From Fibrobacter sp. UWB13 (GTDB lineage Bacteria > Fibrobacterota > Fibrobacteria > Fibrobacterales > Fibrobacteraceae), in the NCBI RefSeq assembly GCF_900177805.1, contig NZ_FXAX01000001.1:1426001-1490000 (forward strand): 64,000 nucleotides of DNA. Direction: 5' to 3'. Under the pieces are notes generated by a model. The model was given only the letters and a program-made list of their open reading frames with translations, made no database searches and was not told where the DNA came from. The position numbers and the translations under genes are program-made. Shown piece by piece: positions 8,129-58,515 of the stretch; the first letter of the stretch is position 1, and every line of letters starts with the position of its first letter.

Positions 8129-10762
8129 TTATTTCTTTTCACCTTTTTTCCTGAGCCAGGAGCCACAAAGATACATCGAGAAGATGACACTTGTCACGAG
8201 GAACATGAAGATTCCCATGCAAGCGAGGTGCCCAATGCCCTGCAAGCCGCGATGCGTCGTAAAGAGGAAGCCGACAAAGCCTGCAATCGTAGTCAAGGAG
8301 CTTGCCATCACGTTACGACCCGTCGTGTCAAAGAGCTGACGAAGGGTCATCCCTTCATTGGATTTCGAACACCAAGACGTAATGAAGTGGATTGTCGCAT
8401 CAATGCCAATACCCAGCGTCATCGGAATCACAATCACGTTGTAGATGCTGATTTTTCCAAATTCAAAGAAGTACGTGAGCGCACCCAAAAGTCCAAGCGT
8501 GAGAAGCGCCCCCATGCCAAACGAGACACCTCCCGCCAAGAACATCGAAGGTTTGCGGAACGAAACAATCAACGTGAGGAAAATGACAAGCACAATGACC
8601 GAAGCCAGGTTAAAGCTGTCCGCCTTCACCGATTCAATCACGTCCGAAAGGATGAACTGCGACGAGAACGTGCGCAAGCGTTCGCCATCAAAGTTCCAGT
8701 TGCCATAGCGTTCCTGGAAGCGGTGCAACGCATGGGCATCCCAGCTCGGGAAGTCACCGTAAATAAAGCCAATCTTACCGTAAGAGCCATCCTTTTCGCG
8801 GAGCAAGTCGAGCGTCCATGCCGGGACATCTTCGGCGGCAAACGGCTTTTCAACTTGAGCAAGTTTGCGGAGCGTCGAGACGTTTGCGGAATCGTCGCCT
8901 TCGGCCTTGTCAAAGACTCTCGCTTCGACCAAGTCACGAATTTCTTCGATAACTTCAAGGCGCTTTTCCTGGGAATCCGCAGGCGGCACAAAGCTCTTGA
9001 GCGTAAGGAAACTGCCTAACAGCGGATCCTTTTCGTCATGGAGTCGAACCATCAACGTGTCATAAAGCTTATCAAGCTGTTCGGCCTTGGAGCCCATCAC
9101 AGCTGCAGGAGTCGAAGTCACAGCACGGTTTGTCGCGCGAGTGACCTTGGTCGAAATTTTCTGTTCTGCGGCAGGAACAACCTTATCCGTATGCACACGG
9201 CGCAAATTCTTCAAGTTGTGTTCAAAATCCACATGTGGTGCAAACCAGAGCGCTACGGCACCGAGCACAAAGCCAATCAAAGCGGCATGCTTGAAGAAAC
9301 TGAAAATGCGCTGTTCGCTCCAGGAATCCGGCAACAGAGACTTCTGCGGAGCCGCAGGAATACCGCCCATGCAAGCGACAAAGACCGGCAAAACGAGGAC
9401 GGACGTCATCATACTGAAGAGCACACCCATCGATGCCACAATGCCGAATTCATAGAAGCCACGGAAGTGTGCGACCAAGAGCGTGAGGAACGCGGCAATC
9501 GTCGTGAAGCTCGCCAAAATAAACGGCTTGAGCATCTTGCGCTGCGTTTCTTCGAGAACTTCTTCAAGAGAACTGTACTTGTTCAAAAGTTTCTGCGCAT
9601 TGCCCAAAATGTGAATAGAATAGTCAATGCCGATACCCAAAATAATCGATGCGACAAACACCGTAAACGGATTCAACTTGCCATAGAAAAGTGCGGTAAA
9701 AGCAAGCGTCGGGAGGCAAGCGTAAAGCACAGAGCCGGTCACGAGAATCGGGCCCTTCACACTCCTGAAGAAGAATGCGGTCAAGAGGAAAATCAAGACA
9801 AGGCTAATGCCGAACGAGAAGATACTGTCGTTTGCAACTTCATCAACTTCCTTCAAGCCTTCGTAAGTGCCTTCCACCGTAAAGCGAGTCGGCACCGGGT
9901 ATTGCTTGCTACGGAAAAACGCCAAAAGCTCATCAGTCTTTGCCAAAATTTTCGTCACAAATTCATAGTCCGTCGAGGGCTTAATCAACTTTGCGTTCAC
10001 AACCGCGTTAAAGAGAATCTTGCCCGTGCTATCGGGTTCCGGACTACCAATCAAGCGATTCTTCAAACTATCCGGAAGGTAAGCCTTCGGGTTCCATTCC
10101 TTTTTACCCGTTTCGGTTTCAGCAGGAGTATTTTTCTTGAAGAACGCATCGAATGCACTTACCGCTTCTTCGGGGAGACCGAGTTCCATCGGCAAATTTG
10201 CATCGAACCAGACGCGTTCCTTTTTCGAAGTAGCTTCGCCGTTTGCAGAACTAGCAGAATCCGTCGGACCATCGCCGAGCAAGTCGACAACGAGCGGACC
10301 ATTTTTGCGTCCAATTTCAAGCTGCAGATCTTCAAGATTATCGCGGATGTTTTCAAGGTGCTTGACCGGGAGGTACAAAAGCGCATTGTCCTTGAAGAAC
10401 TGGTTATCGTTATCCACCTGCGTCGAGACAAAATCGCCCTGCCAGTTTTTGTGGATGTAATCCTGAATGGAATCCTGCAAAGCGGCGGCAAGTTCCACGC
10501 TTTCGCTCTGGATGGCAATCATGAATCGGTCGGTACTGCCGAAACGCTCATACGATTCTTCAAGCGCCTTAACGCTCGGCGTATCTTCGGGCAAGAGGTG
10601 CGAAAGGTCAGCGTCGAGTTTCAACCCCGGCTTCACGAGAATCGGAAACGCGAGGAGGAGCGCTAAGAAGAAATAGAAGGTAAGAGCCTTATACTTATTT
10701 TTGCAAATGAGTGGAATGTACCACTGTGAGAATTTTTCAGCAAACGACTTTTTCGTATTCAT
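8129..10762 (-). CDS. MMPL/RND-superfamily exporter
   Basis: An 877-aa membrane protein with the two-fold RND layout: one transmembrane helix, a large extracytoplasmic loop, a helical bundle (with GIGIDYSIH), then a second loop and a second bundle with TLGIGIDATIHF. The repeated GxGxDxxIH motif and Asp residues are the proton-relay helix of MMPL/hydrophobe exporters, which move lipids or hopanoids to the outer envelope. The start at 10762 is preferred over an upstream ATG at 10813 because of the topology and a TATATTTC box 5 nt before it. The neighbouring membrane sulfatase suggests an envelope lipid role (inference). Confidence 0.87.
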   Translation of the reverse strand: MNTKKSFAEKFSQWYIPLICKNKYKALTFYFFLALLLAFPILVKPGLKLDADLSHLLPEDTPSVKALEESYERFGSTDRFMIAIQSESVELAAALQDSIQDYIHKNWQGDFVSTQVDNDNQFFKDNALLYLPVKHLENIRDNLEDLQLEIGRKNGPLVVDLLGDGPTDSASSANGEATSKKERVWFDANLPMELGLPEEAVSAFDAFFKKNTPAETETGKKEWNPKAYLPDSLKNRLIGSPEPDSTGKILFNAVVNAKLIKPSTDYEFVTKILAKTDELLAFFRSKQYPVPTRFTVEGTYEGLKEVDEVANDSIFSFGISLVLIFLLTAFFFRSVKGPILVTGSVLYACLPTLAFTALFYGKLNPFTVFVASIILGIGIDYSIHILGNAQKLLNKYSSLEEVLEETQRKMLKPFILASFTTIAAFLTLLVAHFRGFYEFGIVASMGVLFSMMTSVLVLPVFVACMGGIPAAPQKSLLPDSWSEQRIFSFFKHAALIGFVLGAVALWFAPHVDFEHNLKNLRRVHTDKVVPAAEQKISTKVTRATNRAVTSTPAAVMGSKAEQLDKLYDTLMVRLHDEKDPLLGSFLTLKSFVPPADSQEKRLEVIEEIRDLVEARVFDKAEGDDSANVSTLRKLAQVEKPFAAEDVPAWTLDLLREKDGSYGKIGFIYGDFPSWDAHALHRFQERYGNWNFDGERLRTFSSQFILSDVIESVKADSFNLASVIVLVIFLTLIVSFRKPSMFLAGGVSFGMGALLTLGLLGALTYFFEFGKISIYNVIVIPMTLGIGIDATIHFITSWCSKSNEGMTLRQLFDTTGRNVMASSLTTIAGFVGFLFTTHRGLQGIGHLACMGIFMFLVTSVIFSMYLCGSWLRKKGEKK

Positions 10763-46094: not shown

Positions 46095-47768
46095 CTAAAC
46101 GAGTCGCACCGTTTCATCGCACATTTCACACACAGCAGTCCTGTGCGTCACGAAAATCATCGTTTTTTCCGGGAAGGCTTCAAACAAACGGTGATAAAGT
46201 TCCGACTCGGTCGCCTCATCCAACGACGAACTGATTTCATCCAAAAGCAAGATATTTCCCGGTCGCAAAAGTCCTCGGGCAATCGCAATACGCTGAGCCT
46301 GACCTTCGCTGAGACCGTGTCCGCGTTCTCCAATTTCACAATCCAAGCCCTTCGGCAGTTCGTTCACAAATTCAGCACAAGCGATTTGCAAAACCCGCTG
46401 CATTTCATCTTCAGTCGCATCCGGTTTTGCAAGCTGTAAATTATAGCGCACGGAGCCGTTCATCAAGGTATTGCCCTGCGGAACATACACAAAATTCGAT
46501 CGGGTCGCCTCCGAAACAGACTCCATTCCTGCGACATTTTCGCCTTCCGAATAAAGAACCATTCGACCCATGTCAGGCTTTATAAAGCCGAGCAAAAGCC
46601 GGAACAAAGTCGTCTTGCCCTTGCCCGTCTCGCCCATGACGGCATTCTTGCTACCGGGCTTAAAATCGTGCGAGAACCCGCAAATGACTTCGCGGTCTCC
46701 ACCCGAATAGCCAAAACTTACGTTGTCCAACCGCAATCCGAGCCGCCCGCGCATTCCCGAAAGCTTTTCTGCACGTATTTCAGAAAGCATTCCCGAGCGC
46801 GATTCGCTCAAAGTCCCGTTAGCGTCCTTTTCCAGTTCATCCAAGCGGTCTATGCTCGCCGTAGAATGCACTAGCTGCGGCACCAAGCCAAGCAAAGTCA
46901 GAATCGGGTGCTGGATTTGCCCCACCAACTGCAAAAAAGACGTCATCACGCCAAACGTAATCGTACCGTCACGAAGCCCAAGCCCGCCCCAAACAAAAGC
47001 CAACAAGTAACCAAGTCCAAACGCAGAACCAATCGCAAAACGCGCCACCGTCGTAAAGCGGGTCCGCCTCATCACATCATTTACGAGTTTATCCTGTTTT
47101 AACCCAAGCCTCTCCACCACCCATTTTTCGCTTTCTAGCGAGCGCAATACGGCATTGTATTCCACGCCTTCCTGCACCTGCATCTGGATGCGGCTTTCGC
47201 ATTCACGAATTTCCAGAGTCATATTGCGGAGCTTACGAGAAATCAGCTTCCCTACCACAACCATCACAGGAGTAAGTAGCAACAAAGCCCATGCCAATCG
47301 CGCATCGAACCAGCGCATCAGCAAAAACGCCCCAACAAGCTGAATTCCAGTTACCGCCATCTGCGGGAGCGTATCAATCATAGACGTCGATACCGTTTCG
47401 ATATCCTTCGAAAGTCTCGAAGACACATCGCCCGAATGTAACTCATGACCGTCAAAAAGACTACGCTTGAACAACGTTCCAAAATAGAACAGCCTAAGTG
47501 CATTCGTCATTTTCACTGTGGCAGAGGCAGTCATGTAGTAATACAAAAGCCTAAGAACAATCGACCCCACCACTGTGAGCACCAAAAGTAGGATCATCCG
47601 CACAACATCGTTTTGCGTCCCGGTGAGAATCGTCTCGTCTATAAACCGCTTGCTGAGCCATATCATCAAAAGGCCGCACACCACGCGTGCAGACCCCGCC
47701 AAAATGCGGGTGACGATATTTACGCGAAAGCCTTTCGTCCCGCGCCACAGCCAAGCGACATACTTCAT
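46095..47768 (-). CDS. ABC exporter, fused permease/ATPase
   Basis: A 557-aa type IV ABC exporter half-transporter: ~six membrane helices (1-300) then the ATPase: Walker A GETGKGKTTLF, signature GLSEGQAQRIAIARGLL (LSEGQ instead of LSGGQ), Walker B ILLLDEISSSLD, switch His in FVTHRTA. It has no C39 peptidase domain, so any leader cleavage would need another enzyme, perhaps the S26-like protein of the same operon. Start 47768 overlaps the PqqD-like stop (ATGA); an ATG at 47792 is possible. Confidence 0.88.
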   Translation of the reverse strand: MKYVAWLWRGTKGFRVNIVTRILAGSARVVCGLLMIWLSKRFIDETILTGTQNDVVRMILLLVLTVVGSIVLRLLYYYMTASATVKMTNALRLFYFGTLFKRSLFDGHELHSGDVSSRLSKDIETVSTSMIDTLPQMAVTGIQLVGAFLLMRWFDARLAWALLLLTPVMVVVGKLISRKLRNMTLEIRECESRIQMQVQEGVEYNAVLRSLESEKWVVERLGLKQDKLVNDVMRRTRFTTVARFAIGSAFGLGYLLAFVWGGLGLRDGTITFGVMTSFLQLVGQIQHPILTLLGLVPQLVHSTASIDRLDELEKDANGTLSESRSGMLSEIRAEKLSGMRGRLGLRLDNVSFGYSGGDREVICGFSHDFKPGSKNAVMGETGKGKTTLFRLLLGFIKPDMGRMVLYSEGENVAGMESVSEATRSNFVYVPQGNTLMNGSVRYNLQLAKPDATEDEMQRVLQIACAEFVNELPKGLDCEIGERGHGLSEGQAQRIAIARGLLRPGNILLLDEISSSLDEATESELYHRLFEAFPEKTMIFVTHRTAVCEMCDETVRLV

Positions 47769-48034
47769 TCGAGCACGTTCACCTTTAGCCATTCGCCGAC
47801 AATTGCAGCAACATCGATCCGAGCCTGTTCTTCGCTCACTTCATACTCTTCGCAAAGAGCCTGGGCAAGCGAATCCACCGTAAAATCACCTTGCAGTTCC
47901 GCCTGCTTCCAAAGCCATGCAGCCGTTTCATTCAGGCACAAGAGGCGCCCAAAATCCAGAGCGCCAATACCTTCGCCCATAATGACCTGTTCGCCACACA
48001 CTTCGCGCAATACAAAGCCTTTCTTGATTTTCAT
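47765..48034 (-). CDS. PqqD-like peptide carrier (HPr-rel type)
   Basis: An 89-aa protein of the PqqD fold: strands REVCGEQVIMG and GALDFGRLLCLNETAAWLW, then the helices SLAQALCEEYEVSEEQARIDVAAIVGEWLK. PqqD domains bind the leader part of ribosomal peptides and present it to modifying enzymes. It is the middle gene of three coupled by 4-nt overlaps, between the S26-like peptidase and the exporter. The start ATG at 48034 has AAGG 8 nt upstream. Confidence 0.85.
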   Translation of the reverse strand: MKIKKGFVLREVCGEQVIMGEGIGALDFGRLLCLNETAAWLWKQAELQGDFTVDSLAQALCEEYEVSEEQARIDVAAIVGEWLKVNVLE

Positions 48035-48510
48035 TTTTTTACCTTCTTGTATATCCAAAGTAAATAACGCCTAAAGGGTAACAGAATATACCAAATTTTC
48101 GCTGCGCACCTTTCGGCAAAAGTCCCTTGCAGGCTTTTTTTCCCATTGGGTCTGACCACGCCAATTACCTTGGCATAAACATCAGTTCGTTTGCAGTATT
48201 CTCGCTGCACTAGGTTTCCATCCCCCATGAGGACCACATTTTCGCCCGAGAACGCAACGATTCTATGGATAACATAATGCTTTTCGACATTTTCCAGATG
48301 AAGAACATTATCCGGGATTGTAAGCGCCAATACCACATCGCCTACGCACAAGTCCACAGGCTTTTCTAGAATCACGCTATCGCGACCGCCCACAATAAAA
48401 GGCAACATGCTACACCCGTTCACGGGGAACGTTACACTCACGCCCTCGTTTACCAGACGAATGGCTTCCGCCATAATCAGCGCATCACTTTTTTTTGCGG
48501 AATCCATCAT
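48031..48510 (-). CDS. S24/S26 signal-peptidase-like protein
   Basis: 159 aa with the serine-peptidase block NGCSMLPF (Ser34), GRDSVILEKP, GDVVLAL, then VIHRIV (His82) and GDGN. The Ser-His pairing (HRIV in place of a Lys motif) is that of the archaeal/eukaryotic S26B type. A C-terminal helix (IWYILLPFRRYLLWIY) suggests membrane attachment. In this operon it is the obvious candidate to cleave an exported peptide leader. It overlaps the kinase gene and the PqqD gene by 4 nt on each side. Confidence 0.82.
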   Translation of the reverse strand: MMDSAKKSDALIMAEAIRLVNEGVSVTFPVNGCSMLPFIVGGRDSVILEKPVDLCVGDVVLALTIPDNVLHLENVEKHYVIHRIVAFSGENVVLMGDGNLVQREYCKRTDVYAKVIGVVRPNGKKSLQGTFAERCAAKIWYILLPFRRYLLWIYKKVKK

Positions 48511-49400
48511 TGAATCTCACGTACCACCGTTTGGCAACACAGCCTTGCCGCGTCTTCGTCCGGCAAGCATTCCAAGAACCACACAGGGACACACGAAGCA
48601 AGTCCATTTTCAGTTTGGTGCAATCCATCGGCAAGATTCTTGTTCCAGCGCATTCCCGAGATACTCGGCATTATCGCCGCATAGGCAGAAACGCCCCTAA
48701 GCGGAGAAATCTTGTTAAACGGAGCTTGCGACAACAGCACAAAACCGCCCAATTCCATTTCAACATTCTTGTAGCAAGGGGTCTTTCCACTCCACGGCGA
48801 GCCATAGGCAACCGCAAACTTTCGGCCGTCTTTTTCGAACAAACGCACGACAGGATTATCGTCATTGAACAACTCCGAGCCCTCATTGTACTTGAGCCAC
48901 AACCGTGCGTGCGTGCTTTTGCCAGTACCACTTTTTCCCAAGAACAAGTAGCCCAAGCCCTTGTATTGAATTCCTGCCGCATGGAATAAAGCCGTTTCAA
49001 AGCCCGCAGTCGCAAGAGCATACAAGACCATCAATGCATTGTTTACCGCAAAATTGCTCGATTCAGCAGGGATTTTTTCCTTACCCAATAACAACACCGC
49101 ATGCTTAAAATCCTTTTCACAAACAAGCACGCCCATAGGCTTTCCAAAAAGCCAAAAATCAAACGCAGGCAAACCATCAGACGTTCGCCCGCATATAATC
49201 ACCTGCCCTTCTTCATCCTGTCGAATATCCTCGGTATATTCAGGAGCGACCTCATTCTGCACATCAAGCGAAAACACAGAATTTTTGCAAGACGATTCAG
49301 CACCCGAGTCAACCGCAAAAGGCGCATAATTACTCATTTGCGACAAGATTTCATCGCAGGCATTGACCTCAAAAATATGCTCGGCAACTTTATAGAACAT
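48507..49400 (-). CDS. HPr kinase-like (HprK-related) protein
   Basis: 297 aa. The P-loop GYLFLGKSGTGKST (Lys161) and following STHARLWL, FNDDNPVV and SGKTPC match the HPr kinase/PEPCK-like fold of HprK-related proteins found with PqqD-type carriers in peptide-modification loci. The usual N-terminal HprK domain is absent. It probably phosphorylates a peptide or carrier protein rather than HPr. It ends overlapping the peptidase gene. Confidence 0.82.
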   Translation of the reverse strand: MFYKVAEHIFEVNACDEILSQMSNYAPFAVDSGAESSCKNSVFSLDVQNEVAPEYTEDIRQDEEGQVIICGRTSDGLPAFDFWLFGKPMGVLVCEKDFKHAVLLLGKEKIPAESSNFAVNNALMVLYALATAGFETALFHAAGIQYKGLGYLFLGKSGTGKSTHARLWLKYNEGSELFNDDNPVVRLFEKDGRKFAVAYGSPWSGKTPCYKNVEMELGGFVLLSQAPFNKISPLRGVSAYAAIMPSISGMRWNKNLADGLHQTENGLASCVPVWFLECLPDEDAARLCCQTVVREIQ

Positions 49401-49414
49401 TTAAACGCCCCAAT

Positions 49415-50542
49415 TCATTTCGTATTTTTCAAATACCATAGCGACAACCGTCTAAACTTGATTCGAATCCAAATCGACTTGATAAAACCGAACCAATAAT
49501 TCAATTCGCAGCCCAAGATTTCAACGGGAGAAAACCAAAACTTGCGTATAATATGATACCGGCGCCAAAGCCAAAGAACAGCCCAATGTTTACTTTTACT
49601 GGACTTACAATACATGCCAAAATTTCCGCCAACAAATATTTCGTCAAGCATCTTTTTTCCGAGTTTTTGATTCGGCGAACAAATCATCTTAGATGCATCA
49701 AGTCCAAAGATACGCCCCAAGATCCACATCAAGGCTCCCGCAAACCTTAAAAGTCCTAAAGAAGACAACTTGGCATTTATTTCTCGACGATTTTCCTCGG
49801 TAGCATGCTTCAGCAAAATAAAATAATCGATAATTTGCTTTAAACCGATACCATCCATCAAAAAATGATGCTGGATATGCGAAAGCTGCATCGCAAGGGC
49901 AAATGTCATCGAAGGAATATTGAATCCTTCAGGCACACGCTCCACATTCTGAATTTTTTCTTCCAGATAACGCATCAGTCGCGCACTCGAAAATGGACTC
50001 CAATTCTTGGAAGAGGGCTTATAATGGATTTCAACAGAAACGTCTCCCTCCGGTCGCAATTGAACATGATGCGCCGAGAGCAAGTCCTTTTCGAACAATT
50101 GATAGCCCATTTGTTTAAGCAAGGCAATCACACTATCTCGACCACCTTCAACCCACAAGTCGATATCTCCTGCTTGCCGCATATTGGGGTCGGGATAAAG
50201 CCTCGCATTGGCAGGTCCCTTAAGCACCGCCGTTTTGCGCCCCTGAGCTTCAAAAAGTTGCGTAAGACGAGATGCTTCTGCGTTCAGAAGACCATTATGT
50301 CCTTTAACAATTTCAGCCTCGACTGCCCACTGGAACATTAATTTCGAGGGAGGTTGCTGTTCCGCCGGCAAATGGGAAACGGCTCGATAGACAACAGCAC
50401 TAATCTGCTGCTTGTGGCACATCGACCGCAATGACCGCCATTCTTCATCATTCAGCTTGCGCGTAAAAAAACGCGGAGAACAGTCGTCATCGACCGCCAT
50501 TCGCAAAAGATCGAACAAAGCTTCATCTTGAGAAAATTTCAT
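49415..50542 (-). CDS. nucleotidyltransferase family protein (NTP_transf_5), copy 2
   Basis: 375 aa. The core is VLKGPANARLYPDPNMRQAGDIDLWV with the metal-binding DID, and then VEIHYKPSS and helical C-terminal domain (MQLSHIQHHFLMDGIGLKQ), the pattern of the uncharacterised nucleotidyltransferase family often found with PqqD/HprK-like genes. It is about the same length as, and clearly similar to, the gene immediately upstream, so a tandem duplicate. It ends in a basic tail. Product and substrate are unknown. Confidence 0.82.
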   Translation of the reverse strand: MKFSQDEALFDLLRMAVDDDCSPRFFTRKLNDEEWRSLRSMCHKQQISAVVYRAVSHLPAEQQPPSKLMFQWAVEAEIVKGHNGLLNAEASRLTQLFEAQGRKTAVLKGPANARLYPDPNMRQAGDIDLWVEGGRDSVIALLKQMGYQLFEKDLLSAHHVQLRPEGDVSVEIHYKPSSKNWSPFSSARLMRYLEEKIQNVERVPEGFNIPSMTFALAMQLSHIQHHFLMDGIGLKQIIDYFILLKHATEENRREINAKLSSLGLLRFAGALMWILGRIFGLDASKMICSPNQKLGKKMLDEIFVGGNFGMYCKSSKSKHWAVLWLWRRYHIIRKFWFSPVEILGCELNYWFGFIKSIWIRIKFRRLSLWYLKNTK

Positions 50543-50569
50543 CAGCTTGCAAACTAGAAAAAATGTGTT

Positions 50570-51670
50570 TTAAATGACACCTCTCAATGAGACGCGCCTC
50601 ATCTTGATGCGTAGAGGAATAAATTTAAAAAATGTTTTCCAATACGCCAATTCACAACAGACAACATCAACAGGAGCAAACCAGAACATCCGAATCATAC
50701 GCCAACGGCGCTTTAACCAGAGAATAAAAAAATGATTACCCTTATTGGATTCACAATGCCTGCCAAAATTACCTTCGGACTGAATCATGGAAAGCACCTT
50801 TTGACCATTTTTCGCATCGGGTTTGCAAATCATTTGAGACGGAGCAAGTCCCCAAATATATTCCATAATCCACATCAGCGCACTGCCCATTTTCGAAAGT
50901 CCCAAACTCGAAAGTAGAGCAGACACATCGCGCCTATCCTCCTCAGAAGCTTGTTTCAACAGAACAAAATAATCGACAACTTGCTTTAAGCCAATCCCTT
51001 CCCACAAAAAATGATGCTGGATATGCGATAGCTGCATCACAAGGGCAAACTTCATCGAAGGAACACAAAATCCCTCGGGCACACGCTCCACGTTCTGGAT
51101 TTCTTTTTCCAGGTAACGCATCAGCCGTGCATTCGAGAACGGATTCCAATTCCCTGAAGATGGCTTATAATGTATTTCAACAACAATCCCCGATTTTCCA
51201 TCCAAATGGACATGATGATCCACTTTGAGATGTTCTGCAGAAATTTCATAGCCCATTTTTTTCAGCAATTCAAGCACACTATCACGCCCGCCATCAACCC
51301 ACAAGTCTATATCACCAGCGTTTCGCATATAAGGGTCAGGATACAGCCTAGCATTTGCCGGTCCCTTGAGCACCGCCGTTTTCCGCCCTTGAGCCATAAA
51401 CAGCTCTGTAAGCCGGGCAGCTTCGGCATTCAACAGCTTATTATGCCCCTTGATTGCCTCCACTTCACTAGCCCACTGGAACATCAACATTTTCGGAGGT
51501 TGTTTACCGCAAGGCAAACGACAAATTCCACGATAGATGATTCCCGCAATCTGCTGTTTAAGGCTTTCCGAATGCAAATATTGCCATTGAGCAGAATCAA
51601 ACTCTTGCGCAGGCACTCCAAAAGCGATTCGCAAAAGTTCAAAAAAATCATTTTTTTCAGCGTGATTCAT
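50570..51670 (-). CDS. nucleotidyltransferase family protein (NTP_transf_5), copy 1
   Basis: 366 aa, a paralogue of the next gene: shared blocks include GRKTAVLKGPANARLYPDP, AGDIDLWV, VEIHYKPSS, NARLMRYLE and QNVERVPEGF. First gene of the six-gene operon; a TAACTTTC box lies 6 nt before its ATG with no ribosome site. Both copies keep the DxD metal site, so both are probably active. Confidence 0.82.
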   Translation of the reverse strand: MNHAEKNDFFELLRIAFGVPAQEFDSAQWQYLHSESLKQQIAGIIYRGICRLPCGKQPPKMLMFQWASEVEAIKGHNKLLNAEAARLTELFMAQGRKTAVLKGPANARLYPDPYMRNAGDIDLWVDGGRDSVLELLKKMGYEISAEHLKVDHHVHLDGKSGIVVEIHYKPSSGNWNPFSNARLMRYLEKEIQNVERVPEGFCVPSMKFALVMQLSHIQHHFLWEGIGLKQVVDYFVLLKQASEEDRRDVSALLSSLGLSKMGSALMWIMEYIWGLAPSQMICKPDAKNGQKVLSMIQSEGNFGRHCESNKGNHFFILWLKRRWRMIRMFWFAPVDVVCCELAYWKTFFKFIPLRIKMRRVSLRGVI

Positions 51671-51676
51671 TGTTGT

Positions 51677-51684
51677 GAAAGTTA
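51677..51684 (-). promoter_or_regulatory. TAnnTTTC box, nucleotidyltransferase operon
   Basis: TAACTTTC lies 6 nt before the ATG at 51670. Upstream (51685-52061) I see no gene: the stretch is AT-rich and holds an orphan terminator and a bidirectional hairpin. Confidence 0.5.
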
Positions 51685-51890
51685 GAAAATATAATTCAGA
51701 TCAATTATTGGGGCTTTATTACAATATACGGAATACAAAAATCGCCGTTTTTCATCAAATTTCGCCAATTTTTCATAAAAAGCCTGTTGTAAGTGTTGTA
51801 AACCTTTACATCAGAAATGTTCTAAAAAATACCACTAATACTCCAATTTAAACTATTTTATGGATACAAAACCAAACATCCCATACACCA

Positions 51891-51931
51891 AAACAACGGC
51901 ACCTCTCACGAGATGCCGTTGTTTCTTTTTT
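51891..51931 (+). terminator. orphan plus-strand terminator
   Basis: An 11-bp perfect stem (AAACAACGGCA / TGCCGTTGTTT) with a 12-nt loop, followed by seven T residues. No plus-strand gene precedes it, so a small RNA of ~70-90 nt starting around 51860 is possible (see findings). Confidence 0.65.
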
Positions 51932-51998
51932 ACATGCTTTTCTTGTTTTATTCGAAATGGTTTTGTACTTTACTTGTATTGACAACCCATAATACTCC

Positions 51999-52023
51999 AA
52001 AGCCCTCTTACGAGGGCTTTTCC
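51999..52023. terminator. bidirectional hairpin after tldD
   Basis: AAAGCCCTC/GAGGGCTTT stem, loop TTAC, T-run on the plus strand; downstream of the tldD stop on the minus strand. Confidence 0.55.
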
Positions 52024-55940: not shown

Positions 55941-55943
55941 TAG

Positions 55944-56014
55944 TTGAGCTACCAGGATTCGAACCTAGACAAACAGAGTCAGAATCTGTTGTGCTACCGT
56001 TACACCATAGCTCA
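55944..56014 (-). tRNA. tRNA-Gln(CUG)
   Basis: 71 nt with a complete cloverleaf: 7-bp acceptor TGAGCTA/TAGCTCA, D arm with GTGTAACGGTAGC, anticodon stem ACAGA/TCTGT with loop TTCTGAC (anticodon CTG), T arm CTAGG-TTCGAAT-CCTGG, discriminator A. CCA is not encoded. A single-gene unit with its own terminator. Confidence 0.92.
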
Positions 56015-56070: not shown

Positions 56071-57480
56071 TTATTTTTCGTTTTGTAAAGTTGGCGGTTC
56101 AAAAGTCATCCATTGCTGGTCAAGAGTATCATTTTTCGGCAACTGGACGTGTGCAATTCTCACATAATCCTCAAAAGGAACGTCAGCTTCCTGGAGCGTC
56201 TTGACCACTTTCGGGTCACCCGAGTAAAGCACAATATCATGACCACCAGCCGGAAGGTCACCAATACGCAGCATATTGCAAGTCACTTCTCTCACAAAAT
56301 GGCTCGTACCCTTCAGCCCCACAACAACGCTATTCACCATAGACATGCAATTAGTCGTCTTCGTGGTATCCGTATCATCAATGGCAAGCATAACACCACT
56401 GACAAGCACAGACGGCTTTACAAGGGTCGTATCGCCCACATCAAGCGTATCCTTCAAACCTTTAAGCTTCGAAGCACGAATGTAACGGCTCACACCTGCG
56501 AGTTCAACCTTTCCATCTTCTCCCAGCAAGCGGTATTCCATGCGAAGGCTATCATACGGAACTTTTTCCGGAGCAGGCAAGACCCAGCGGCCAGAATCAT
56601 CTGTCACCGTCTGCATCATAAAGCCTACGGAATCGCCTTCAACAAAGTCAAAGCCGTACAAATCCGTAATCATCTGCACCTGAACATTCGAGCAAGCGCT
56701 ATCGCCGCACTTCACAGTACCAGACAAATACGGCTTAGCCCTCTTCTTTTCTTCAAGCTTGATCAAGGAATCCACCTGCATCGTCGGGCTCCAGATAAAC
56801 GGTCCCTTCGAAATCGTATCACCAGACTTAACCTCACCATCCATGTTCCATGTACGATAAATTAACGTATCGGCAACACCGGAATCGGCAAGTCGAGCCA
56901 CAATCTGCGGATCGCCCGGGCAGAACCCAAGCCACCATTCACCGGCAGGAATCAGTATCGAGAACGAATCCCCAGCAAACACGCTCTGCGAGAACGGCGT
57001 ACCCGGCACGTAGACCTTAAAGTGAGAGCCAACTGCCATCGACGGTTCGACGACGTCTTCGTAATAAAGCACGCTACTGAACACGGCTGCCTTTTCAAGC
57101 TTGATGCTATCCAAAGAGCCTGCACTCTTTGTTGCACGCGGCTGGTACGAGATTTCCTTGTACTCTGCATCGACAACAGCAAGCTGGAAAGTATCTGCAA
57201 ATACAGAGTCAAACGAGAACACCCCCTGCGAGTCCGTCACAGTCTCGATATATTCAGATTCAGTAAGAGTATCACTTGCAGAAGGTTCACGGGCAACACG
57301 GACCATCGCCGCAACAGCACGAGAACCATCGGTACGAGTCACCACGCCACCAAGCGCAATCGTATTACCCGTATCCGTAACAGTACCTGCAACACCACCA
57401 TTTTCACTTGTGCAAGCATACATGCAAGCACAAACTGCAACCAGCAGTCCAACATACGACTTAGCAAATTTCATGTTCAT
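56071..57480 (-). CDS. lipoprotein with carboxypeptidase-regulatory-like repeats
   Basis: 469 aa with signal peptide and lipobox (MYAC, Cys23). A GGVVTRTDGSRAVAAMVRV segment and TVTDSQGVFSFDSV match carboxypeptidase-regulatory/CnaB-like beta-sandwich modules; a second, looser unit lies after residue 240. It is probably surface-exposed. It is overlapped by 20 nt with the upstream regulator gene, the arrangement often seen for TIGR02147 genes in Fibrobacter. Confidence 0.8.
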   Translation of the reverse strand: MNMKFAKSYVGLLVAVCACMYACTSENGGVAGTVTDTGNTIALGGVVTRTDGSRAVAAMVRVAREPSASDTLTESEYIETVTDSQGVFSFDSVFADTFQLAVVDAEYKEISYQPRATKSAGSLDSIKLEKAAVFSSVLYYEDVVEPSMAVGSHFKVYVPGTPFSQSVFAGDSFSILIPAGEWWLGFCPGDPQIVARLADSGVADTLIYRTWNMDGEVKSGDTISKGPFIWSPTMQVDSLIKLEEKKRAKPYLSGTVKCGDSACSNVQVQMITDLYGFDFVEGDSVGFMMQTVTDDSGRWVLPAPEKVPYDSLRMEYRLLGEDGKVELAGVSRYIRASKLKGLKDTLDVGDTTLVKPSVLVSGVMLAIDDTDTTKTTNCMSMVNSVVVGLKGTSHFVREVTCNMLRIGDLPAGGHDIVLYSGDPKVVKTLQEADVPFEDYVRIAHVQLPKNDTLDQQWMTFEPPTLQNEK

Positions 57481-58330
57481 CCTCCTCGACGTCCGTCTCA
57501 GGTGGAAGATTCATCTTTTCCTTGCTCAGCGGGAAGAACTGGATGTTCAATTCACAAACCATGGATTCACCCTCGTCCGAGCGCACGATATCCACGATTT
57601 CCTTGCGGAACAAATCAATTTTGCTAATGATACGTTCCAAACCCTGCGCCGACACACTCATCGTCATACAAGATACATTTCTGCGTTCCGTACTGTAGTG
57701 ATCCAACGCATCTTTACCCAAATCAATCATCTGCTTTTGGAACTGATGAACGAAAAGCGGGGCGATTTCACTGCCATTCGTAATTGCCTTGTTTACGGAA
57801 TGGTAGAATCCATCTTCGCCGAGCTCTATAAGTCCCAAGTTGAGAAGGAGCTGGATAGTCTGTTTAGCCTGCGGGAGTGAAATTTTCGGATTCAAGAAGA
57901 GCGCGAGTTCCTGAATGTTCTTGTCGTTAATCTTCAAGACGGCTAGAGCTTCACGAGCCACAACGTAATACCACTTGCTGTAGTATTCCTGCTGGTTCTT
58001 GGTCAAGTTCTTGATAGTTCGCGGGAGGAGCGCGGACATCTGATCAAAGATCTGCTGCTTCGAAGACGCCGTAGTCGCATGCGTGAAATCCACCATCAAG
58101 GCGAAATATCGACCTTCCCTTTCGTTGAGCCCGAGAGCTTCGATAAACTTCGGGATCATCTGTTGAGTGAGCGACTTGCGGCCGCGAATCAAATCCAAGT
58201 AAAGACCGGACGAGGAATACCCAGCCTTCTTTGCAAAAGACCGGTACGAGAAATACCTCTGCACGGACTTACGATACTCGTAGTAGTCCTGGAGGTACTT
58301 TCGATAATTGTAGTAGGCATAAACGTTCAT
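57461..58330 (-). CDS. TIGR02147-type (DUF4423) regulator
   Basis: 289 aa. The N-terminal YLQDYYEYRK..SYRSFAKKAGYSSSGLYLDLIRGRK is an HTH-like opening, followed by LNEREGRYFALMVDF and the C-terminal winged-helix-like IQLLLNLGLIELGEDGFYH, SVSAQGLERIISKIDLFRKEI. This is the Fibrobacter TIGR02147 paralogous family; a DNA-binding regulator is likely but not proven. The start at 58330 is set by a TAGATTTC box 6 nt upstream. It overlaps the lipoprotein gene. Confidence 0.85.
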   Translation of the reverse strand: MNVYAYYNYRKYLQDYYEYRKSVQRYFSYRSFAKKAGYSSSGLYLDLIRGRKSLTQQMIPKFIEALGLNEREGRYFALMVDFTHATTASSKQQIFDQMSALLPRTIKNLTKNQQEYYSKWYYVVAREALAVLKINDKNIQELALFLNPKISLPQAKQTIQLLLNLGLIELGEDGFYHSVNKAITNGSEIAPLFVHQFQKQMIDLGKDALDHYSTERRNVSCMTMSVSAQGLERIISKIDLFRKEIVDIVRSDEGESMVCELNIQFFPLSKEKMNLPPETDVEEDEHEIC

Positions 58331-58336
58331 CGGAAG

Positions 58337-58344
58337 GAAATCTA
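58337..58344 (-). promoter_or_regulatory. TAnnTTTC box, TIGR02147 gene
   Basis: TAGATTTC lies 6 nt before the ATG at 58330; no ribosome site is present. Confidence 0.5.
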
Positions 58345-58515
58345 ATTTTTTTTGAGTTTTTTGGGAACACCTATTTTTGAAAATATCCCGTAAAAAAGCC
58401 CTATTCCATTCTGAAATCGACAAAAAAGAACACCTTGGGAACACTTTTTATTTTTGAAGTGATACGCTTTCAAAAAAAATTGCTTAATTTAAAGGAACAC
58501 CCAATCCCATCCCTC

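Follow-up and report, generated by a model that had tools for sequence, protein, structure and literature searches.

What does an operon that encodes a kinase, a peptidase, a PqqD-family protein and an exporter act upon when no substrate gene stands beside it? This question is raised by a locus of Fibrobacter sp. UWB13, which was examined within a window of 64,000 nucleotides (i.e. the whole stretch of DNA analysed; contig NZ_FXAX01000001.1, positions 1,426,001 to 1,490,000). A sequence-only reading had described six genes on one strand at 46095-51670, with 4-nt overlaps at the last three joins and an exporter devoid of the C39 leader peptidase, and had inferred peptide modification without a precursor or a maturase. 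The arrangement was confirmed and all six ORFs are intact (Table 1). Given ATG starts, the overlaps lie at 48507-48510, 48031-48034 and 47765-47768. A Pfam domain search of the ABC exporter gave PF00664 and PF00005 and no C39 peptidase domain. The best NCBIfam models for this protein (i.e. bacteriocin exporter, type I secretion, CydD and MsbA) were all below cut-off, and an alternative, longer start is possible at 47792. The HprK-like kinase and this type of PqqD protein are each present once in the genome, and the two NTP_transf_5 genes are the only copies of their family. The G+C content of these two transferase genes is 0.41-0.45 as compared to 0.48-0.56 in the surrounding genes (window 49000-52000), suggesting, from composition, that they may have been acquired separately. 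Near the operon are a tRNA-Gln (CTG) gene at 55943-56014 and a TIGR02147-like gene at 57461-58444.

Table 1. Genes of the operon, with positions in the window and the evidence for each assignment
Feature	Length (aa)	Position	Strand	Evidence
NTP_transf_5 nucleotidyltransferase-like protein 1 (LppN/PsmN-like)	366	50570..51670	-	PF14907, E 2.7e-45
NTP_transf_5 nucleotidyltransferase-like protein 2 (LppN/PsmN-like)	375	49415..50542	-	PF14907, E 3.3e-46
HprK-like peptide kinase (LppK-like)	297	48507..49400	-	alignments, AlphaFold model
S26B-like Ser/His peptidase (LppS-like leader peptidase)	159	48031..48510	-	TIGR02228, E 2.8e-4; alignments; fold
PqqD-family discrete RRE (LppB-like)	89 (from ATG)	47765..48034	-	PF05402, E 2.9e-13
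ABC half-transporter (LppD-like), MsbA/peptide-exporter homology		46095..47768	-	PF00664 + PF00005

The identities of the kinase and peptidase were examined using alignments and structural models. Sequence matches of the HprK-like protein were weak (PF07475, E 0.04; ScmC, 6e-4). Residues H140, K161 and D180-D181 were invariant in alignments of 25 and 29 sequences, matching the His-Lys-Asp-Asp motif described for lasso-peptide kinases (PMC9266682), and comparison of the AlphaFold model (pLDDT 92.8) retrieved PEPCK/HPr kinase structures. The best family match of the S26-like protein was a weak one, below cut-off, to the archaeal/bacterial signal peptidase I model TIGR02228. Its residues Ser34, His82 and Asp97 were invariant in the alignments, and its model, which is of moderate confidence (pLDDT 77.7), has the LexA/UmuD/signal-peptidase (S24/S26) fold. 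A PDB sequence search gave no matches for either protein, whereas the fold comparison did. Kinase and peptidase are fused into a single protein at three other loci (i.e. L039, L062 and L106). The PqqD profile matched TfuB1, a lasso RRE (6jx3), with an E value of 0.0025.

This set of components corresponds to that of the linear polyphosphorylated peptides (LPPs), a class of RiPPs reported in May 2026 (Popov et al. 2026; PMC13381572), whose clusters encode an HprK-like kinase, a discrete RRE, a SipW-like leader peptidase with an S/H/D triad, an MsbA-like exporter and an NTP-transferase but no cyclase. The window operon contains an H/K/D-D kinase, a discrete RRE, an S/H/D peptidase, an MsbA-like exporter and NTP-transferases. 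Experiments on LPPs demonstrated a +80 Da series produced by the kinase, multiple phosphates on core Ser3, and RRE-dependent leader cleavage two residues before this Ser, with the S/H/D triad being tested by experiment; deletion of lppN had no visible effect (PMC13381572). The proposals of the sequence-only reading that the locus modifies a peptide, perhaps by phosphorylation, with the PqqD protein binding the leader and the S26-like protein standing in for the leader peptidase, are all supported by their fit with this experimentally studied pathway. Its view that a maturase is missing did not hold, since the kinase likely fills the role of modifying enzyme. The operon probably provides maturation and export for an LPP-type RiPP pathway, the precursors of which are encoded elsewhere.

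LPPs have been described as 'restricted to the Bacillota', each cluster having 1-3 precursors of its own and often belonging to a capsule locus (PMC13381572). The kinase was found in 63 of 70 genomes of the genus Fibrobacter and, within the family, in a single further genus, with at least 585 relatives in species-level genomes; the best 80 of these belong to Fibrobacter, Prevotella and other Bacteroidales, come mostly from ruminant sources and are for the most part accompanied by the same cassette, sometimes rearranged. Some 35 of 40 Fibrobacter neighbourhoods and most of 66 further loci keep the order HprK-S26-PqqD-ABC, more than expected by chance. Fibrobacter cassettes occupy several chromosomal sites and have 0-2 transferase genes (40 neighbourhoods). 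At six loci (i.e. L066, L067, L068, L069, L111 and L112) the S26, PqqD and ABC genes are not found next to the kinase; two of these loci, L067 and L069, have a precursor ~180 nt upstream of the kinase, as if the pair had moved off from the remaining genes. The cassette is thus near-universal in Fibrobacter and frequent in rumen Bacteroidota, a phylum range that is new with respect to the published one. Co-occurrence with an exopolysaccharide locus, which would have refuted a peptide-directed function, was looked for and not seen: no polysaccharide or exosortase family recurred around the cassette in 106 neighbourhoods. Searches of the literature found nothing relevant on PF14907, or on this gene set in Bacteroidota or Fibrobacter.

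Precursors were sought by comparing all against all the small ORFs from the gaps of 107 neighbourhoods, without a prior motif, followed by profile iteration. A single dominant small-ORF family emerged, present in 33 of the 107 loci and consisting of peptides of 36-60 aa with a leader of the form YxxPxM...LLxxS. Iteration yielded 126 unique peptides, with Ser at Tyr+20 in 102 and Leu at +16 and +17 in 110 and 102, respectively. The YxxP count is partly a product of the profile; the starting set was chosen without the motif. No family in Pfam or NCBIfam corresponds to these peptides. Their cores, downstream of the Ser, are acidic and variable, and 44 of the 126 have an aromatic-acidic motif (e.g. 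YCDELG, YDDEFG or DDWFG) that is possibly a metal-binding or export signal. Occurrences of this motif, which is seen in about a third of peptides, include those in L066-L069, L169, L175 and L215-L233.

The earlier statement that no precursor ORF is visible stood for the window, where the best match to the peptide-family HMM had an E value of 1.1, but failed for the genome. The check proposed with it, a search for short ORFs elsewhere in the genome that share a leader, succeeded, with exactly two matches (E 5e-12 and 8e-8) in tandem on another contig (C2, ~52.98-53.22 kb; starts at 9218 and 9079 of L164, minus strand). One is MKKNYIAPEMTVVQFEHEGCLLGCSTNNQEEGCGYGNGFGYNDGVSDVEHV, for which an ATG further upstream is possible, and the other is MSNTSKKEYVTPEIKVIVIEAQVPLLESSPYLPDHISVGREE. 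A counterpart pair is also present in genome G050. An ORF of 23 aa that precedes the operon (~51705-51776) was rejected as a precursor, no locus having a relative of it.

Kinase and peptide occur together across genomes: 63 genomes contained both, 34 neither, one the kinase only and three the peptide only (Fisher p 3e-22; p 2e-5 in the 72 nearest genomes). The genome set includes drafts, and all four exceptions (G077 for the kinase without a detected peptide; G072, G085 and G098 for the peptide without a kinase) are incomplete drafts. Among the matches listed, a peptide gene was located ≤3.5 kb upstream of the kinase on the same strand in at least 27 of the 64 genomes with the kinase, as compared to ~0.17 expected. 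The Fisher and Poisson values take related genomes as independent and use only the matches listed, and hence are guides and not exact probabilities. Fibrobacter genomes have 1-13 precursors, many of which are unlinked to the cassette. As the C2 peptides are the only precursors in a genome with one HprK and one such PqqD protein, and given the pattern in relatives, they are the likely substrates of the operon.

The C2 precursors stand directly behind a gene for a secreted protein, and this pairing was found to be general. The gene preceding the peptides encodes a protein of ~290 to >2700 aa with a common C-terminal domain (here SURF, from alignment A2), ending for example in FDLKGRKLNxKPTxKGTYYNNGKKVIIK. 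Among SURF genes with 3' context, 57 of 60 were directly followed by a peptide gene. Since the peptide profile was made from cassette loci, an independent test is provided by 20 loci picked only by SURF matches away from the cassette, where 20 of 21 SURF genes were followed by a peptide. In the reverse test, SURF was upstream in ~19 of 20 Fibrobacter loci picked by peptide matches. The pairing is common, not universal, in Bacteroidota, and transferase genes also occur behind several distant SURF-peptide pairs. A single-protein query had given no SURF match in the genome of the window, a sensitivity artefact; the profile search found one, and this sole match adjoins the C2 precursors. The protein (L164:9248-14950) is ~1900 aa in length and has repeated WYVV.GEV.Y.CSDF blocks and Ser-rich linkers. 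In a Prevotellaceae locus (L098:6083-9823), two secreted proteins encoded in tandem differ in body from SURF proteins but end in a GLYIVNGKKV tail, and each has a nearly identical precursor behind it, indicating that the pairing reaches beyond the SURF domain.

The SURF tail ends in F/Y-D-x-x-G-R ... G-x-Y ... basic residues, like motifs B (Gly and a basic residue), D (GxY) and E (basic) of the short type IX secretion system (T9SS) signals of Prevotella intermedia (PMC11969387), but differs from that cargo in that no curated CTD model matched; the SURF domain is likewise without a family in Pfam or NCBIfam. The T9SS translocon protein SprA is encoded in the genome of the window, and T9SS use has been proposed for F. 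succinogenes. In the absence of a curated match and of secretion data, export of SURF proteins by the T9SS remains an inference from the resemblance of the tail.

At the chromosomal site of the window, sister strains (i.e. L033, L034, L035 and L037) have a SURF and a peptide gene between TldD and the kinase, the order in L035 being transferase, SURF, peptide, transferase, kinase. In the window, the flank of which is 98% identical to L035, only the two transferases are found. The SURF-peptide module is therefore absent from this site in the sequenced strain, having been lost or never acquired, and the cassette would act on precursors in trans.

A pathway can be proposed in which every chemical step, as well as the role of the surface protein, is inferred, there being no product, transcript or biochemical data from the organism. 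The PqqD-like RRE would bind the YxxPxM leader of the 36-60 aa precursor and the HprK-like kinase would phosphorylate the conserved Ser 20 residues past the Tyr. The S26B-like peptidase would then remove the leader just before this Ser; as LPP leaders are cut two residues ahead of the phosphorylated Ser, the probable site, by analogy, is the one that follows the LL of LLxxS. The NTP_transf_5 proteins may subsequently add a nucleotide or sugar onto the phosphoserine, PsmN, a related transferase, having been linked to hexose addition on the phosphoserine of a lasso peptide (PMC9266682); the lack of a visible effect of lppN deletion leaves this role open. The linear peptide would be exported by the ABC protein, and the likely substrates in this strain would be the two tandem C2 precursors behind the 1900-aa surface protein. 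The system shares with LPPs the component set, a YxxP leader and a conserved Ser just past the expected cut. In contrast to the LPP motif YxxPxVLxHQxIxFETxxS (PMC13381572), the Fibrobacter leaders have LLxxS for FETxxS and the Ser at Tyr+20 rather than Tyr+18, and the precursors, many of which are unlinked in Fibrobacter, are paired with a T9SS-type surface protein whereas those of the Bacillota are in-cluster. Common descent is likely but untested, as the leader middle and spacing differ and LppB and LppS were not compared directly.

The operon could alternatively be a tailoring locus for a paeninodin-like lasso peptide with its cyclase and B2 protease lost or distant. Clusters of the paeninodin and pseudomycoidin type (PadeK, PsmK, PsmN; PMC9266682) share the HKDD kinase, nucleotidyltransferase-like partner, PqqD-type B1 protein and exporter, and a paeninodin precursor model weakly matched four of 38 precursors (best E 0.027). 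These clusters, however, encode a cyclase along with a B2 cysteine protease, and their peptides are phosphorylated on a C-terminal Ser, whereas in Fibrobacter the conserved Ser sits where leader and core meet. A search of the genome for a B2-type transglutaminase-like protease (PF13471) was negative, with matches in two control genomes, and no cyclase gene was present in the operon or recurrent in the 106 neighbourhoods (these loci only, without a genome-wide PF00733 search). None of the leaders has Trp only, the preference of paeninodin (PMC13381572), Tyr being used instead, and a lasso origin is considered very improbable. Just as little weight is given to the operon being an orphan under loss in this strain, an idea to which the module kept by the four sisters, and missing beside an almost identical flank, lends some colour; against it, none of the six frames is broken, no catalytic residue has been lost, and C2 carries two precursors of the family, with the counterpart pair in G050.

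A further possibility is that the cassette is directed at the surface proteins encoded nearby. T9SS-type cargo or its anchor would then be modified by the kinase and transferases, and the peptide would be an RRE-presented helper or adaptor instead of an exported product. Such a role is compatible with the direct succession of SURF and peptide genes (57/60) and with the short-CTD-like motifs of the tail, T9SS cargo being modified at the C-terminus (PMC11969387). Nevertheless, SURF proteins have a Sec-type signal peptide (judged by eye) and the RRE, leader, leader peptidase and exporter fit a cytoplasmic peptide pathway. Moreover, the same gene set modifies the peptide directly in Bacilli (PMC13381572), and some Bacteroidota precursors have no SURF neighbour. 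A function directed at the surface proteins themselves is accordingly regarded as unlikely, though less remote than the lasso and orphan explanations. With the operon read as an LPP-type pathway acting on peptides, each precursor might give a modified peptide dedicated to the preceding surface protein (e.g. a phospho- or glycopeptide joined to it or co-displayed with it after T9SS export), a suggestion that is no more than tentative.

The phylum range, the split architecture and the pairing of precursors with surface proteins are new here. LPPs had been known from the Bacillota only and without a known role; the present findings indicate that dominant fibre degraders of the rumen (i.e. Fibrobacter and relatives of Prevotella) commonly possess their machinery. 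Candidate precursors can be found in trans through their leader. Genome mining in which a precursor or cyclase is required next to the RRE would pass over many such systems, the kinase having at least 585 relatives. In the surface protein whose gene directly precedes the peptide (57/60) there is a concrete partner and a first clue to the role of the peptide. If the peptides are indeed dedicated to these proteins, one central cassette would supply many surface protein-peptide pairs with different cores.
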